Position numbers and translations under genes: made by a program. From Paraphotobacterium marinum (GTDB lineage: Bacteria > Pseudomonadota > Gammaproteobacteria > Enterobacterales > Vibrionaceae), in contig NZ_CP022356.1 of the NCBI RefSeq assembly GCF_002216855.1, positions 1,054,001 through 1,118,000 of the forward strand: DNA of 64,000 nt, read 5' to 3'. This document shows, piece after piece, positions 7,267-44,046 of the stretch. Position 1 is the first letter of the stretch. Every line of letters begins with the position of its first letter. Under the pieces are notes generated by a model, which ran no database searches, had not been told where the DNA came from, and was given only the letters and a program-made list of their open reading frames with translations.

Positions 7267-9188
7267 TTATTTAATCAATTTAACAGTGATATTATAGTTT
7301 TCATCATTTATATCTAAAATGGACACCTTCAAAACTTGCCCTATATCAAAAGTACATTCATTAGATTTCAATTGAAATAATTCGTTATTAAATTTAATTT
7401 TGTTATCGATTGAATTGGCTGGTAAGAAAACAGATGCTCCATTCTCAATTAACTTTAATCGTAAACCTGCTTTGGTGACATCAAAAACTTCAGCTTTAAA
7501 GATTGTATTATTTAATTTATGGTTTTTCAGGAAGTTTGCGTATAAAAAGTTATTTATTTCGCGCTCTGCAAAACGATGTAATTTTCTTTTTAAAATAGAA
7601 GCATCTAGAAAGTCACTATTTAATTCCTCAATAGGCTTGTCAACTGAAATAATGGATTTAATTAATCTATGATTAAGTAAGTCACTGTACTTTCTTATAG
7701 GAGAGGTCCAAGTTGCGTAATTTTGAATGCCCATCCCATAATGTGAGCCAGGATCGGTTGATAGACTTGTATGAGCATTAAATTTTCTTAATCTTTTTTT
7801 TATATAACCAGGCTGTTCATCTAACCATTCTCTATAATTCTTATAATTTTCAATCGTTAAATTTTCATTATTGTTATCGAAGAAATTGATATTGAGTTTT
7901 TTAAATAGAGACTCTATCTCCGTTCGTTTAGCCATATCTAAGCCAGAGTTAGTATTAAAAATACCCTTGTTTAACTTTGTTGCTAAAAAATGTCCTGCAA
8001 CTTGATTTGCTACAATCATTGCTTCTTCAACAATTTTGTGGGCTATATTTTTTGATTCTGTTTTGATATTTTTTACGCTGTTATCTTCATTTAACTCAAA
8101 TTTATATTCATTTTGATCTTTAAAAAGTATTTCATTTTTATGTCTATACGATAATCGTTTTTGACAAAATAACTCTAAAAGTTGAAGTTGTTGTTCAACT
8201 AAAGGATTAGAAGTTGGAAGATTTGTTTTGTTTTGTAAAAACTCAAATACTTGTTCATAGCTTAACTGCCCCTGAGATTTAATCCAAGCCATAAAAAAGT
8301 GAACATCTTTATTGATTTGCCCATTTTCATCAATTATAACTTCACAACAAAGAGTTGATTTTTTTTGATGTGGTCGAAGAGAGCATATTTCTTCACTTAA
8401 TTTTTTTGGTAACATTGGAACATTCATTCCTGGAAGATAAATAGTAGAGATTCGAACACGTGCTTCTTCATCTAATGTACTTTCATGTTCAAAATATGAG
8501 GTTGGATCTGCTATGGCTATGGTTAATTTATAAGAGTTATTACTAGCTTTTTCTATATAAAGGGCATCATCAATATCCTTTGTATCAGGACCATCGATAG
8601 TTACAAACGGCTTTTCGGTTAAGTCGATAAGTTTTTCGTCATTAAGAGCGAATGATACCTCTTGTTCATTAGGCCCATGAAAAGGAAGATTTAAGTTAGC
8701 TAATGCACTTTTCCATTTCTTAAAAATATCATCAGATTCAGCTACTTTAAATTGCACTTTACAGTTAAATGAGGTTTTATTATTCATTTTATGTTGTGAA
8801 AAATTACATAAAAACGTCTCATTCTCTTTCATGTCAATAATATTAGATTCTTCTATTTTAAAATGATGATTTATCAAAGCATTATCAGGTACAATGAAAA
8901 ACTTGTTATTTTTTTTGATTGCGGTGCCTGTAAAGCTTTCTAATTCAGAAGATATTAGCTTGATAGGCTCTGCATATTTTTTTTTATCTTGTTCTCGGAT
9001 AATTGCTTCAATTTTGTCACCATTTATTAATTGTTTCATAAATTTCTGAGATAAAAAGATTTTTTCTTTTTTTTCTGTTTCTAAAAACCAAATCCTTTTA
9101 CATGAGCCTTTACTGTCCCAGTCTTTTTAGGCAAGCTTTCTTCTAATTCTTTTTTTAATTTATTAAGTAAGGGATTGTCTTGAAGCAT
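7267..9188 (-). pseudogene. rnb: RNase II (exoribonuclease II), N-terminal frameshift
   Basis: 3'-5' exoribonuclease of the RNB family. The 590-aa open piece (7267-9039) holds most of the enzyme: a cold-shock-like domain, the catalytic DGPDTKDIDDALYIE motif with its Asp cluster, the TSPIRKYSDLLNHRL block and a C-terminal S1 domain. It starts internally. Upstream, an ATG at 9188 begins [17 protein letters not shown], matching the E. coli RNase II N terminus (MFQDNPLLAQLK), and runs to [12 protein letters not shown] before a stop. One extra base in the run at 9083-9087 joins the two frames ([15 protein letters not shown] leading into MKQLINGDKI). As written it lacks about 49 N-terminal residues but keeps the catalytic core. 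Confidence 0.87.
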
Positions 9189-9345
9189 AAAACATTGTTC
9201 TCTTTAAATTATAGATAGGTAAAAATTTAATTAAAATTATATTAAATAAATAGGACAAATAAAATAAATTATTTTAAATCAATTATAATAGTAATTAAAT
9301 TATAGAAATAAGCACTTCATTAGTGTAGAATGTACCGTTTTAAAA

Positions 9346-9422
9346 TTGGGACATAACTTTAGGTTGATAGAGTATCTCTATAGATAAAGAAGTCCCAAAT
9401 CAAATGATGATAATGGGGACTT
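9346..9422 (+). promoter_or_regulatory. deaD leader with mutually exclusive stems
   Basis: TTGGGAC (9346-9352) can pair with GTCCCAA (9392-9398), enclosing a small hairpin ATAGAG-TAT-CTCTAT (9367-9381). The same segment, as AAGTCCC (9390-9396), is also perfectly complementary to GGGACTT (9416-9422), which contains the ribosome-binding site (GGGGAC, a few bases before the ATG at 9424). The two pairings exclude each other, so the leader could switch between exposed and hidden ribosome-binding site. Pairing is seen in the sequence; regulation (for example by cold) is inference. Confidence 0.5.
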
Positions 9423-9423
9423 T

Positions 9424-11205
9424 ATGTCAAACAGTATAGAACGATTCGATCAATTAAACTTGAAGAGCTCAATTTTGAGTTCTTTAGAAGACATCAATTT
9501 TATAAATCCAACACCAATCCAAGCTGCATCGATCCCCCCTCTTTTAGATGGTAATGATGTTCTCGGTAAAGCTCAAACCGGTACAGGAAAAACAGCCGCC
9601 TTTTCGCTACCTATTTTAAATAAAATAAACTTTTCACAAAAAAAACCACAAGCAATTATCATGGCACCTACTAGAGAGTTAGCTATTCAAGTTGCCGCAG
9701 AAATCAAAACGTTAGGTCAAAATATTGAAAAATTGTTTGTAACGGAAATCTATGGAGGAGCTTCAATTGTTGATCAAATGAAGGTTCTGAAAAAAAATCC
9801 TCAAATTGTTGTTGGAACTCCAGGTAGAGTAAAGGATTTGATTTCACGTAATAAACTTCACTTGGATGAAGTAGAGACTTTTGTATTAGATGAAGCGGAC
9901 GAAATGCTAAAAATGGGTTTTGTGGATGATGTGACTTGGATTATGGAGCAAGCACCTAACTCAGCACAACGAGTTTTATTTTCAGCGACAATGCCTCCAG
10001 TGGTAAAAGACATTGTTAATAAATTTTTAAGAAAACCGGTTAAGATTGATGTTGCTGGTGAAAATAAAACAGTATCTAAGGTAGACCAAAAGTTTTGGGT
10101 TGTGAAAGGTGTTGATAAGGATGAAGCTCTTTCAAGGCTTCTTGAAACTGAAAATCCTGATGCGTCTATCATTTTTGTGAGAACAAAGCAAGATACGGAA
10201 AAACTATCTGATCACCTAACTAGAAAGGGCTTTAAGGTTTCCGCTCTTCATGGAGATATTCCTCAATCTTTAAGAGAACGAACTGTAGAGCATATCAAGA
10301 AAGGTGTTATTGATATATTAGTGGCGACTGATGTGGTAGCACGTGGACTTGATGTGCCGAGAATAAGCCATGTTTTTAATTATGATATACCTTTTGATGT
10401 TGAATCTTATATTCATCGAATCGGGAGAACAGGAAGAGCAGGGCGTTCAGGAAAAGCAATTCTTTTTGTTAGAACCAATCAATTAAAAATGCTAAGAACT
10501 ATTGAAAGAGTAACCAAATCAAAAATGAGTGAAATCTCACTTCCTCTTAGAGATGACGTTGCTAAAGCTAGATTAAACAAACTTGCTACTGATATTGAAC
10601 AAGAAAAAGAGTTTAAATATTTAGATAAATTTATAGCATTAAAAGATCAACTTAAAGAGAAGATTCAAATTAGTGATGATGAATTATGCGCAATTTTATT
10701 GAGAAAGGTTCAAGGCACCAGACCACTTTTTTATCAAGGGCCTGATCCTATGATTGCTGCTCTTGAAAGAGATCAAAAGAGAAATGAAAGAAGGAAAAAA
10801 GGTGAGAAAACAAAAAGTGGAGATGGATTTAAGGGAGATTGGGATACTTATCAGTTGCAAGTAGGAAGAGAACATGGTGTTCAGGTTAAGGATATTGTGG
10901 GAGCTCTTGCAAATGAGCTTGATTTATCAAAGGATTTAATTGGGGGTATTAAACTTACACCACGTCATACTTTAGTTCAACTGCCAAAGAATTTACAAGA
11001 TGCGACAGTAACTCATTTGAAAAAGTTAAAAATTAGACAAAACAAGGTCAATGCTGTTGTAGTTTATGATGATACAATGAATGAAAATAGAAAAAGTAGA
11101 CGAAATTCAGGGCACAGAGGTCGTTCAAGAAATGAACAAGGCAGTAGACCAGAAAGAAAGTTCGATAGAAATCGAGCTTCTAAAAATCGGGTAAAAAATA
11201 AATAA
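9424..11205 (+). CDS. deaD: DEAD-box ATP-dependent RNA helicase DeaD/CsdA
   Basis: 593-aa RNA helicase acting in ribosome assembly, mRNA decay and cold adaptation. All helicase motifs are seen in order: Q motif (NPTPIQAASIPPLL), I (AQTGTGKTA), Ia (PTRELAIQ), Ib (TPGR), II (DEAD), III (SAT), V (ATDVVARGLDV) and VI (HRIGRTGRAG). Then come the CsdA dimerisation-type linker, a DbpA-like RNA-binding domain (about residues 480-550) and a basic Arg/Ser/Asn-rich tail (about 555-593), which together distinguish DeaD from RhlE/SrmB. GGGGAC precedes the ATG within a leader that can fold two ways. Single-gene unit ending in a T-rich hairpin terminator. Confidence 0.95.
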   Translation: MSNSIERFDQLNLKSSILSSLEDINFINPTPIQAASIPPLLDGNDVLGKAQTGTGKTAAFSLPILNKINFSQKKPQAIIMAPTRELAIQVAAEIKTLGQNIEKLFVTEIYGGASIVDQMKVLKKNPQIVVGTPGRVKDLISRNKLHLDEVETFVLDEADEMLKMGFVDDVTWIMEQAPNSAQRVLFSATMPPVVKDIVNKFLRKPVKIDVAGENKTVSKVDQKFWVVKGVDKDEALSRLLETENPDASIIFVRTKQDTEKLSDHLTRKGFKVSALHGDIPQSLRERTVEHIKKGVIDILVATDVVARGLDVPRISHVFNYDIPFDVESYIHRIGRTGRAGRSGKAILFVRTNQLKMLRTIERVTKSKMSEISLPLRDDVAKARLNKLATDIEQEKEFKYLDKFIALKDQLKEKIQISDDELCAILLRKVQGTRPLFYQGPDPMIAALERDQKRNERRKKGEKTKSGDGFKGDWDTYQLQVGREHGVQVKDIVGALANELDLSKDLIGGIKLTPRHTLVQLPKNLQDATVTHLKKLKIRQNKVNAVVVYDDTMNENRKSRRNSGHRGRSRNEQGSRPERKFDRNRASKNRVKNK

Positions 11206-40038: not shown

Positions 40039-40944
40039 TTAATTAATAGTTCCAATTCTATTGAATCTAACCCCTGAAGGTATCCAAGAATCCTTTTTGA
40101 AATCAAAGCTGATCCAAATAAAGGTCGCTTTACCAATTAGCTCTTGCTCAGATAAAAAGCCCCAATAGCGACTATCAAGACTATTATCTCGATTATCTCC
40201 CATCGCAAAATAGTGTCCCTTTGGAACGACCCAGGTATCATAAGGCTCATTTTTTTGATGATAAATAGGCGGTAAATACTCAGCAATATTTGGAGGCAAA
40301 TTGGGTGTAATTAAAATATGGTGGGCAACTTTACCCAGTTGCTCTTTGTATTCATCCATAGGCTCATTGGTCATTTCACTAATATAAGAGCTTTGCTTCA
40401 AGAATGTTTTCGGCACTGCTTCAAGTTTATTATTACAGGTTTTATCTGCTGAGTGACATGCTTTTTTAATGTAAAGTTGATGATCTTTATAAACAATGGT
40501 GTCGCCAGGCAAACCAATAATTCTTTTAATCAGATTAATTTTAGGATTACTTGGATCGGTAAATACAGCGATATCCCCTCGATGAGGCTCTCCAGTTGGG
40601 ATTATTTTCTGATGAAAAACGGGATCATATATGCCATAAGAAAACTTTTGCACGAGAATGAAGTCACCAGGAAGTAACGTTGGCATCATAGAGCCAGAAG
40701 GAATTTGGAAAGGCTCAAATACAAAACTTCGAATAAACCAGACAATGAATAAGACTGTAAAAAGAGATGCTAAAAACTCACTGGTTGTTTGTTTCTTTTT
40801 TGGAGGCTTTGCTTCCGATACGTTAGATTCAGCTAATACAGCCATTTTTTTCTTTTTACGCTCACGCAGCCAAAAAACAAAACAGACAAAAGTAAGTATT
40901 GTTAACCCAGCAGAAAACAAATCTGCCGTATTAAAATTTAACAT
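40039..40944 (-). CDS. lepB: signal peptidase I, copy 1
   Basis: 301 aa inner-membrane serine peptidase that removes signal peptides from exported proteins. Two N-terminal membrane helices (about 8-26 and 58-72), catalytic Ser85 in FQIPSGSMMPTLLPGD, general-base Lys140 in NLIKRIIGLPGD, and box E MGDNRDNSLDSRYWGF. Four Cys are scattered, with CHSADKTC in a family-variable loop. It is the last gene of a minus-strand group after a zinc-ribbon protein and a DUF2937-like protein. Nearly identical to copy 2. The usual lepA-lepB-rnc context is missing. Confidence 0.95.
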   Translation of the reverse strand: MLNFNTADLFSAGLTILTFVCFVFWLRERKKKKMAVLAESNVSEAKPPKKKQTTSEFLASLFTVLFIVWFIRSFVFEPFQIPSGSMMPTLLPGDFILVQKFSYGIYDPVFHQKIIPTGEPHRGDIAVFTDPSNPKINLIKRIIGLPGDTIVYKDHQLYIKKACHSADKTCNNKLEAVPKTFLKQSSYISEMTNEPMDEYKEQLGKVAHHILITPNLPPNIAEYLPPIYHQKNEPYDTWVVPKGHYFAMGDNRDNSLDSRYWGFLSEQELIGKATFIWISFDFKKDSWIPSGVRFNRIGTIN

Positions 40945-42217: not shown

Positions 42218-43123
42218 ATGTTAAACTTTAATACGGCAGATTTGTTTTCTGCTGGGTTAACAATACTTACTTTTGTCTGTTTTGTTTTTTGGCTTCGTGA
42301 GCGTAAAAAGAAAAAAATGGCTGTATTAGCTGAATCTAACGTATCGGAAGCAAAGCCTCAAAAAAAGAAACAAACAACCAGTGAGTTTTTAGCATCTCTT
42401 TTTACAGTCTTGTTCATTGTCTGGTTCATTCGAAGTTTTGTATTTGAGCCTTTCCAAATTCCCTCACGTTCTATGATGCCAACGTTACTTCCTGGTGACT
42501 TCATTCTCGTGCAAAAGTTTTCTTATGGCATATATGATCCCGTTTTTCATCATAAAATCATTCCAACTGGAGAGCCTCATCGAGGGGATATCGCTGTATT
42601 TACCGATCCAAGTAATCCTAAAATTAATCTGATTAAAAGAATTATTGGTTTGCCTGGCGACACCATTGTTTATAAAGATCATCAACTTTACATTAAAAAA
42701 GCGTGTCACTCAGCAGATAAAACCTGTAATAATAAACTTGAAGCAGTACCGAAAACATTCTTGAAGCAAAGTTCTTATATTAGTGAAATTAACAATCAAC
42801 CTATGGATGAATACAAAGAGCAACTGGGTCAAGTTGCTCATCATATTTTAATTACACCCAATTTACCTCCAAATATTGCAGAGTATTACCCACCTATTTA
42901 TCATCAAAAAAATGAGCCTTATGATACTTGGGTCGTTCCAAAGGGACACTATTTTGCGATGGGAGATAATCGAGACAATAGCAAAGATAGCCGATATTGG
43001 GGCTTTTTGTCTGAGCAAGATCTAATTGGTAAAGCGACCTTTATATGGATTAGCTTTGATTTCAAAAAGGACTCATGGATACCCTCTGATGTTAGATTTA
43101 ACCGCATAGGGCTTTTAGACTAA
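42218..43123 (+). CDS. lepB: signal peptidase I, copy 2
   Basis: 301 aa, differing from copy 1 at only about a dozen positions. Catalytic Ser85 and Lys140 are kept, but the residue before Ser is Arg instead of Gly (IPSRSMMPTL), an uncommon change beside the nucleophile. Other differences: P48Q, Q112H, several in the 195-210 region, and the last residues (IGLLD for IGTIN). CTGGAGAA precedes the ATG. Homology with copy 1 begins and ends at the coding sequence. Probably active, perhaps with changed kinetics. Followed by a third, divergent copy. Confidence 0.93.
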   Translation: MLNFNTADLFSAGLTILTFVCFVFWLRERKKKKMAVLAESNVSEAKPQKKKQTTSEFLASLFTVLFIVWFIRSFVFEPFQIPSRSMMPTLLPGDFILVQKFSYGIYDPVFHHKIIPTGEPHRGDIAVFTDPSNPKINLIKRIIGLPGDTIVYKDHQLYIKKACHSADKTCNNKLEAVPKTFLKQSSYISEINNQPMDEYKEQLGQVAHHILITPNLPPNIAEYYPPIYHQKNEPYDTWVVPKGHYFAMGDNRDNSKDSRYWGFLSEQDLIGKATFIWISFDFKKDSWIPSDVRFNRIGLLD

Positions 43124-43164: not shown

Positions 43165-44046
43165 ATGAATATATTTCTCGTTGTTTTAACTTTAATTTCT
43201 TTAATGTGCTATATATTTACGCATATTTCCTACAGTAGATTTTATGCATTAATAAAGCGAGATAATAACGTATCACGCTTTATTTATATTCTTTATCACT
43301 CAAGGGTACTTGCTGAGTTCTCAAAATGGCTACCTTTCCTATTAGTTTTCACATTTGTAAAATTATTTATCATTGAACCCTTTATAATTGTTACCAATAG
43401 TATGAGCAAAACTTTAAATTCTGGTGACGTGACTTTAGTGAATAAAATGGCATATCGAATTAATATTCCTTTAACATCAATAAAATTAGTTTCACTGTCT
43501 AGCCCTAAACGAGGTGATGTGATTGCGTTTAAAGGGAATACTAATAATCCTATAAACCAAGTAAACCGTATTATTGGGTTGCCCGGAGATACATTAAAAT
43601 ATCAAGATAAAGAGCTATATATAAAGAAAAAATGTTATGAAGGCTTATGCCCAAACTGGGAAAAAATAGAGAAAAATTATACTTCAATGACTAAACAAAA
43701 AGCAGAATATATGGAAAATAACTTAATTGAGTATAAACAAAAATTAGATGGTAAAAGTTTTAAGATTCTTAACAATGATATGTTAACGAGCAATCTTGTG
43801 GGAGATACTTTCCAGCAAAAAAACACACCAGAAAATGTATGGGTTATTCCTGAAAAGCATTATTTTGTAATGGGTGATAATAGAGATAATAGTTACGATA
43901 GTCGGTTTTTTGGATTTGTACCGGAAAAAAATATTATAGGTAATGTAGCATACAACATTTTAAATATTCAATTGAATCACAATAAAAGTTGGTTGTTTTG
44001 GTTACCCCAAAGAATATCCTTTAATAATTCAGGTACTATACAGTAG
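43165..44046 (+). CDS. signal peptidase I paralogue lacking the catalytic lysine
   Basis: 293 aa, LepB-like through its length: membrane helix (LLVFTFVKLFIIEPFII), Ser box VTNSMSKTLNSGD, box D NQVNRIIGLPGDTL and box E VMGDNRDNSYDSRFFGF. Ser79 is present, but the residue matching Lys140 of the neighbours is Asn134 (codon AAC 43564-43566), at the same 55-residue spacing; the Pro of SMxPTL is Lys. Without the general base it should not cleave by the Ser-Lys mechanism. The rest is well conserved with no stop or shift, so it may have a binding or regulatory role. 41 bases after lepB2, probably the same transcript. Confidence 0.85.
   Translation: MNIFLVVLTLISLMCYIFTHISYSRFYALIKRDNNVSRFIYILYHSRVLAEFSKWLPFLLVFTFVKLFIIEPFIIVTNSMSKTLNSGDVTLVNKMAYRINIPLTSIKLVSLSSPKRGDVIAFKGNTNNPINQVNRIIGLPGDTLKYQDKELYIKKKCYEGLCPNWEKIEKNYTSMTKQKAEYMENNLIEYKQKLDGKSFKILNNDMLTSNLVGDTFQQKNTPENVWVIPEKHYFVMGDNRDNSYDSRFFGFVPEKNIIGNVAYNILNIQLNHNKSWLFWLPQRISFNNSGTIQ

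Follow-up and report, generated by a model that had tools for sequence, protein, structure and literature searches.

We propose, with rather better than even confidence, that the leader of deaD in Paraphotobacterium marinum NSCS20N07D is a cis-acting translational switch that folds during transcription and has temperature and helicase activity as its likely inputs. The leader and the gene lie on chromosome II, within a stretch of 64,000 nucleotides (the window, along which all positions are counted). DeaD is a cold-adaptation helicase. The encoded protein fell under the cut-off of the best NCBIfam model (553 versus 989 bits), and we therefore use 'deaD' for the DeaD-type helicase of Vibrionaceae. 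The switch would be built from three segments, A, B and C, which are listed here with the neighbouring features.

9326..9331, forward strand: probable -10 hexamer, TAGAAT, with transcription putatively starting near 9338
9346..9352, forward strand: segment A, TTGGGAC, the 5' arm of the open form, with its partner at 9392-9398
9350..9355, forward strand: part of A, with a predicted closed-form partner at 9423-9428 (start codon); strongly dependent on the folding ends and sought in the window only
9357..9361, forward strand: 5' side of the inner helix of the open form, CTTTA, predicted to pair with TAAAG at 9385-9389
9367..9381, forward strand: apical hairpin ATAGAG-TAT-CTCTAT, from the sequence and the predicted fold
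9390..9398, forward strand: segment B, AAGTCCCAA, the switching segment common to both stems
9415..9422, forward strand: segment C, Shine-Dalgarno-like GGGGA plus CTT, the partner of B in the closed form
9424..11205, forward strand: deaD, DEAD-box RNA helicase with DEAD, Helicase_C, DeaD_dimer and DbpA domains

The original prediction had been that B is perfectly complementary both to A and to letters covering the ribosome-binding site, and the segments, this dual complementarity and the coordinates (TTGGGAC at 9346-9352, AAGTCCCAA at 9390-9398 and GGGACTT at 9416-9422) all proved exact. GGGACTT lies over the Shine-Dalgarno sequence, of which the GGGGA occupies 9415-9419, and the ATG follows at 9424. 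A and B form seven Watson-Crick pairs (duplex energy -11.2 kcal/mol), and B and C form seven, or eight counting one G-U pair (-12.6 kcal/mol). In the B:C form, GACATA (9350-9355) is able to pair with TATGTC (9423-9428) over the start codon, a pairing for which the choice of folding ends matters strongly.

Dinucleotide shuffling of 9338-9423 produced two 7-bp arms overlapping by 5 nt or more in the middle segment in 56 of 20,000 cases. When the 3' arm had to lie inside the last 14 nt, the count fell to 19 of 20,000. The criterion was set after the feature had been seen. The fold of 9300-9460 had a z score of -2.80, which 2 of 200 shuffles attained. A looser 'partner change' score did not discriminate: the window value was matched by 5 of 60 shuffles, and the values of three other leaders by 8 (L034), 25 (L018) and 49 (L030) of 60. 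Because this score is common in shuffles, thermodynamic bistability alone proves little, and the case is carried by comparative evidence. Coincidence is an unlikely source of the exclusive-stem feature in the window. Partner changes near the start codon are indeed common in shuffles, and a covariance model built from relatives misses the window leader, as described below, but the rarity of the specific feature in shuffles and the presence of the same layout in 74 relatives make it very improbable that we are looking at an accident of an AT-rich leader with no regulatory role.

Matches to deaD at 61-70% identity were present in all 36 Vibrionaceae relatives searched, and 80 named loci came from a second search: 51 of the Vibrionaceae type (L031-L081) and 29 from Shewanella and other groups. 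Leader extraction from 89 Vibrionaceae-type loci yielded 75 distinct leaders, the window and 74 relatives, after removal of 12 duplicates and of two loci in which the start pattern failed (L016 and L041). By eye, L041 fits the layout, and L016 keeps 5 bp of A:B with just three contiguous pairs of B:C. The alignment places A, B and C in this order in all 75 leaders, and the layout is a common one: a -10-like hexamer comes first, followed by A, as GTCCC or GAGGCCC, an insert that varies, B, as GGGACC or GGGGCCCC, and lastly C, which in the relatives is mostly GGGATCCC and stands immediately 5' of the ATG. The relatives have GTCCC or GGCCC in A and GGGAC or GGGCC in B, and the window has the opposite strand sense. 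With helix-anchored registers, the A/B cores were GTCCC/GGGAC in 41 leaders, GGCCC/GGGCC in 27, GGCCC/GGGTC in 2, GTCCC/GGGGC in 2 and GGGAC/GTCCC in the window alone; in the remaining 2 of the 75 (L008 and L111) the core lacked a 5-bp partner. The possibility that relatives would lack the complementarity does not hold, as a contiguous A:B helix of at least 5 bp was found in 73 of 75 leaders and a B:C helix of at least 4 bp also in 73 (at least 5 bp in 46). An energy of -7 kcal/mol or lower for both duplexes was seen in 69 of the 75 leaders and in 4 of 450 shuffles; 74 of the leaders and 63 of the shuffles had at least four expected pairs in each duplex. We define the Vibrionaceae deaD leader element by the A/B/C order together with A:B and B:C complementarity, and the window leader has all of these. 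As complementarity is kept with other letters in the relatives, the switch is probably real. The strand-swapped version in the window is an unusual natural experiment, in which the complementarity stays and the letters change.

The consequences of this swap were apparent when segments were exchanged in silico. Pairing of the window A with the relatives' B (mean -4.7 kcal/mol) or of the relatives' A with the window B (-1.6) was far weaker than the window's own A:B (-11.2). For B:C, the window B with the relatives' C gave a mean of -8.3, and the relatives' B with the window C gave -6.6, compared with -12.6 for the window's own. A and B of the Vibrio and Photobacterium types cross-paired at -9.5 and -11.4, nearly as well as with their own partners (-9.9 and -12.5). 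Because the B:C swaps and the cross-pairing between Vibrio and Photobacterium types are tolerated, the sharp incompatibility is confined to A:B. The palindromic C of the relatives (GGGAUCCC) may have let B change sense first and A afterwards, with pairing kept throughout.

Covariation was seen in the open form of 27 Vibrio leaders (A:B plus inner stems), where 19 cells were changed on both sides versus 7.0 in shuffles; the covariation score of 0.208 was reached by none of 500 shuffles, and slid versions attained at most 0.064, for a structure taken from the same alignment. These counts covered A:B and the open form, with B:C outside them. The both-side changes in the Vibrio leaders sit in the inner stems and none falls within the five A:B pairs, and in alignment A3 (21 leaders, without the Vibrio type) A:B covaried at one pair only, which was not significant (54 of 500 shuffles). 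RNAalifold gave the A:B helix with little covariation and a weak C hairpin for alignment A1. For A2 it gave an A:B helix whose inner stem was extended, and this fold held up against both shuffles and slid versions. Across all 75 leaders, the inner helix beside A:B was at a chance-like level (at least four pairs in 75 of 75 versus 90% of shuffles; at least five in 45 of 75 versus 53%).

These comparisons bear on the reading that only the closed B:C hairpin matters, as a static or melting ribosome-binding-site hairpin (fourU-like or a simple thermometer) that keeps deaD low, with A:B incidental. With most of the ends tested, the window is predicted to finish in B:C, and the ability of the window B to pair with the relatives' C marks B:C as the more robust pairing. 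However, A changes with B, the window A suits the window B far better than the relatives' B, the A/B cores match in 73 of 75 leaders and Vibrio leaders show covariation in the open form. In addition, a melting hairpin opens in the heat, the wrong direction for a helicase of cold adaptation (as its role is generally understood), and the predicted shares do not move with temperature. We therefore regard the reading in which A:B is incidental as unlikely.

The covariance model was built from 21 relatives, with the window excluded, and was run on genomes with the stricter filters of large searches. Of the 36 Vibrionaceae relatives, whose genomes supplied 12 of the 21 training rows, 33 had a match at deaD; none of 24 other genomes of the order did. 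Two weak matches lay off deaD (E values of 0.06 and 0.07), one of them on the window organism's own chromosome I. The model did not recognise the window leader, for which the best overlapping match had 4.8 bits (E value of 1.6), was in the wrong register and ranked under two nearby chance matches. By this model of sequence and structure the window leader, with its letters swapped, is outside the Vibrionaceae element, so that position and logic, and not sequence, are the grounds for regarding the window element as homologous.

A switch of this kind requires that A is transcribed. A -10-like hexamer was present in 74 of 75 leaders at a median of 24 nt upstream of A, by a hexamer list picked after the alignment had been seen, and the distance in the window is also 24 nt. 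The window promoter candidate, TAGAAA-17-TAGAAT, agrees at 9 of 12 positions, which is weak on its own because a shuffled version of the region has 2.9 such sites on average. Since the hexamer-to-A distance in the window equals the family median, the window transcript probably includes A, and a transcription start downstream of 9352, which would have counted against the switch, is made unlikely by the position of the hexamer. Upstream of the -10-like hexamer, 70 of 75 Vibrionaceae deaD leaders carry a conserved TGTGAnnnnnnTCAM, which we take to be a CRP-like site and which is absent from the window.

In the growing window RNA, A:B was predicted at 0.95-1.00 for transcripts ending up to 9418, and B:C at 0.87 or above from 9424 onward. 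Prefixes ending 14 nt before the ATG held A:B (at least three expected pairs) in 72 of the leaders at 10 °C and in all 75 at 37 °C, and full-length leaders did so in 43 and 45 of 75, respectively. What comparison and prediction show is the shared A/B/C layout, the joint change of A and B and this predicted order of folding. At 25 °C, A:B was predicted to exceed B:C in 41 of 75 leaders, and this split in end states across relatives makes the exchange a natural control point. For the window, the direct-path barrier out of A:B was 12.3 kcal/mol at 37 °C, 19.7 at 10 °C and 23.1 at 4 °C, values that are upper bounds and whose rise in the cold is partly trivial helix strengthening. With longer 3' ends, the window is predicted to be mostly in B:C at every temperature, and would thus be off unless kinetics intervene.

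The original prediction had coupled two exclusive stems, one hiding the ribosome-binding site, with cold control. The stems are supported by the relatives; the cold control is not supported as an equilibrium effect, as no family-wide temperature trend was seen in the 75 leaders (mean predicted A:B share of 0.534 at 4 °C and 0.577 at 37 °C). A cspA-like thermosensor that responds to cold at equilibrium, with temperature itself picking the fold, has some appeal for the window, where the piece 9338-9440 goes from favouring B:C by 3.3 kcal/mol at 37 °C to favouring A:B by 0.3 kcal/mol at 4 °C. But this shift towards A:B is absent with many other folding ends and has no counterpart in the 75 leaders, and we consider such a thermosensor quite improbable; a simple equilibrium thermometer across relatives is not supported by the predictions. 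Because the family lacks an equilibrium shift and the window shift depends on the ends, we would assign any input from cold to kinetics or to a protein.

In the kinetic switch that we favour, A and B would be transcribed first and pair to give the open form. As C, the ribosome-binding-site segment, emerges, B may exchange A for C, giving a closed form in which the Shine-Dalgarno sequence would be hidden, possibly together with the start codon in the case of the window. Translation would then be set by whether a ribosome loads ahead of the exchange from A:B to B:C. One likely input would be temperature, with slower exchange in the cold keeping the open form for longer. The other would be RNA helicase activity, including that of DeaD, which when plentiful would speed the exchange and so exert negative feedback; with strand exchange as the putative controlled step, DeaD is the obvious candidate protein. 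We infer the transcript start, the effect on translation, the cold input and the feedback by DeaD.

A different role for the same structure would be to present GGA motifs to an RNA-binding protein such as CsrA, with the two stems setting their exposure. Consistent with this, 30 of 75 leaders (of the Vibrio type, for example L018, L045 and L058) contain a CUGA-ANGGAN-UCAG-like hairpin, which we take to resemble a CsrA site, and most leaders have GGGA within C. The hairpin pattern is missing from the other 45, including the window, whereas nearly every leader of the set has the A/B/C layout, and we give little credence to a leader that is mainly a protein-binding site.

Shewanella deaD leaders (L083-L084, L087-L090, L092-L101, L108 and L109; 1385-1512) have in common a block that is almost invariant, CGACACGGGGTTGATTTTC ... 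CACAAGGCTACAACCCATG. Within it, GGGGTTG has two possible partners, one upstream and the other CAACCC before the ATG, a logic like that of Vibrionaceae in unrelated letters. The motif was present in 18 of the 21 loci tabulated (it is missing from L085, L086 and L091; L102-L107 and L110 are outside the table). In the prefix of all 18, GGGGTTG was predicted to pair with AATCGAC-like letters upstream of it in a hairpin of 8 pairs, and in 16 of 18 the full-length fold shifted it mainly to CAACCC-like letters before the ATG at both temperatures, narrowly so in L109. The exceptions were L101, which keeps A:B at 10 °C, and L098, in which it pairs with neither. The generic partner-change score of L083 was matched by 6 of 60 shuffles. 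Because the Shewanella segments hardly vary, we treat them as a lead and not a demonstration. Among 17 leaders with a start found (of 20 fetched) from other families of the order, none stands out by this score, the lowest being the Shewanella-type L131 (7 of 60). In some other families, L121 (and by eye L123 and L132) seems to have a different type of leader, with a short reading frame, presumably of the yrbN type, and a common GTAGACTGGC stretch.

Rfam 15 gave no match in the window at the gathering cut-off; at E values of up to 1, 12 related loci gave three weak matches, none in the deaD leader and all far under the cut-off. An open-licence literature search, in which 'deaD' also matches 'dead', contained no deaD leader switch from Vibrionaceae or Shewanella among the matches listed, which is weak evidence of absence. 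In attenuator-type leaders and translational riboswitches, one segment beside the ribosome-binding site is contested by a sequestering and an anti-sequestering stem. The predicted stems of the deaD leader likewise compete for one segment next to that site, but no ligand-binding domain was matched in it through Rfam. Exclusive-stem translational leaders are a known class, of which the deaD leader would be a variant not found in Rfam here, and the prediction of a switch has good support.

Among leaders of cold-adaptation genes, the cspA mRNA leader of Escherichia coli is described in passages of PMC6386945 as a thermosensor, and the likeness is that in both cases the fold of the leader would control translation, on the deaD side by prediction. 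By contrast, the deaD leader precedes another gene and has a short exclusive-stem switch with one shared segment and no general predicted temperature shift; the two were compared in sequence through Rfam only. By prediction the deaD leader is of the cspA type in having alternative folds that affect the ribosome-binding site of a cold-adaptation gene, a role taken from general background. The crhR gene of Synechocystis also encodes a DEAD-box helicase, and PMC3485376 reports that crhR expression is temperature dependent and autoregulated, properties that belong to crhR. The difference is that its abstract, on a cyanobacterium, describes transcript and protein accumulation and half-life, not an exclusive-stem leader.

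More tentatively, the leaders may form an uncatalogued self-tuning family in which the encoded helicase catalyses the exchange of a kinetic switch, so that the cell reads its own RNA-unwinding capacity, with a three-segment logic written in unrelated letters in Vibrionaceae, inverted in Paraphotobacterium and found also in Shewanella; we hold this as a possibility well short of an even chance. If confirmed, the mRNA of a helicase would be read out by the helicase's own reaction, and the leader would offer a compact test of how bacteria sense lost RNA-unwinding capacity in the cold. It would also add a leader family absent from Rfam here, across Vibrionaceae and perhaps Shewanella.

We also noted features of the surrounding DNA. 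Among the 81 loci L001-L081, 60 have a divergent rnb homologue within 1.5 kb upstream of deaD; none of the 29 loci L082-L110 does. In the window, the rnb gene (exoribonuclease II) next to deaD looks interrupted near its start (9017-9188, reverse strand): the N-terminal piece (...KGFGF) stops at 9081, the long frame starts at 9039 and about 50 profile positions are missing, which could be either a sequencing error or a real frameshift. Elsewhere in the window, the list of open reading frames contains two genes in opposite orientation (40039-40944 and 42218-43123) that by eye are signal-peptidase-like and nearly identical, and a third, diverged signal-peptidase-like copy, also recognised by eye, lies at 43165-44046.
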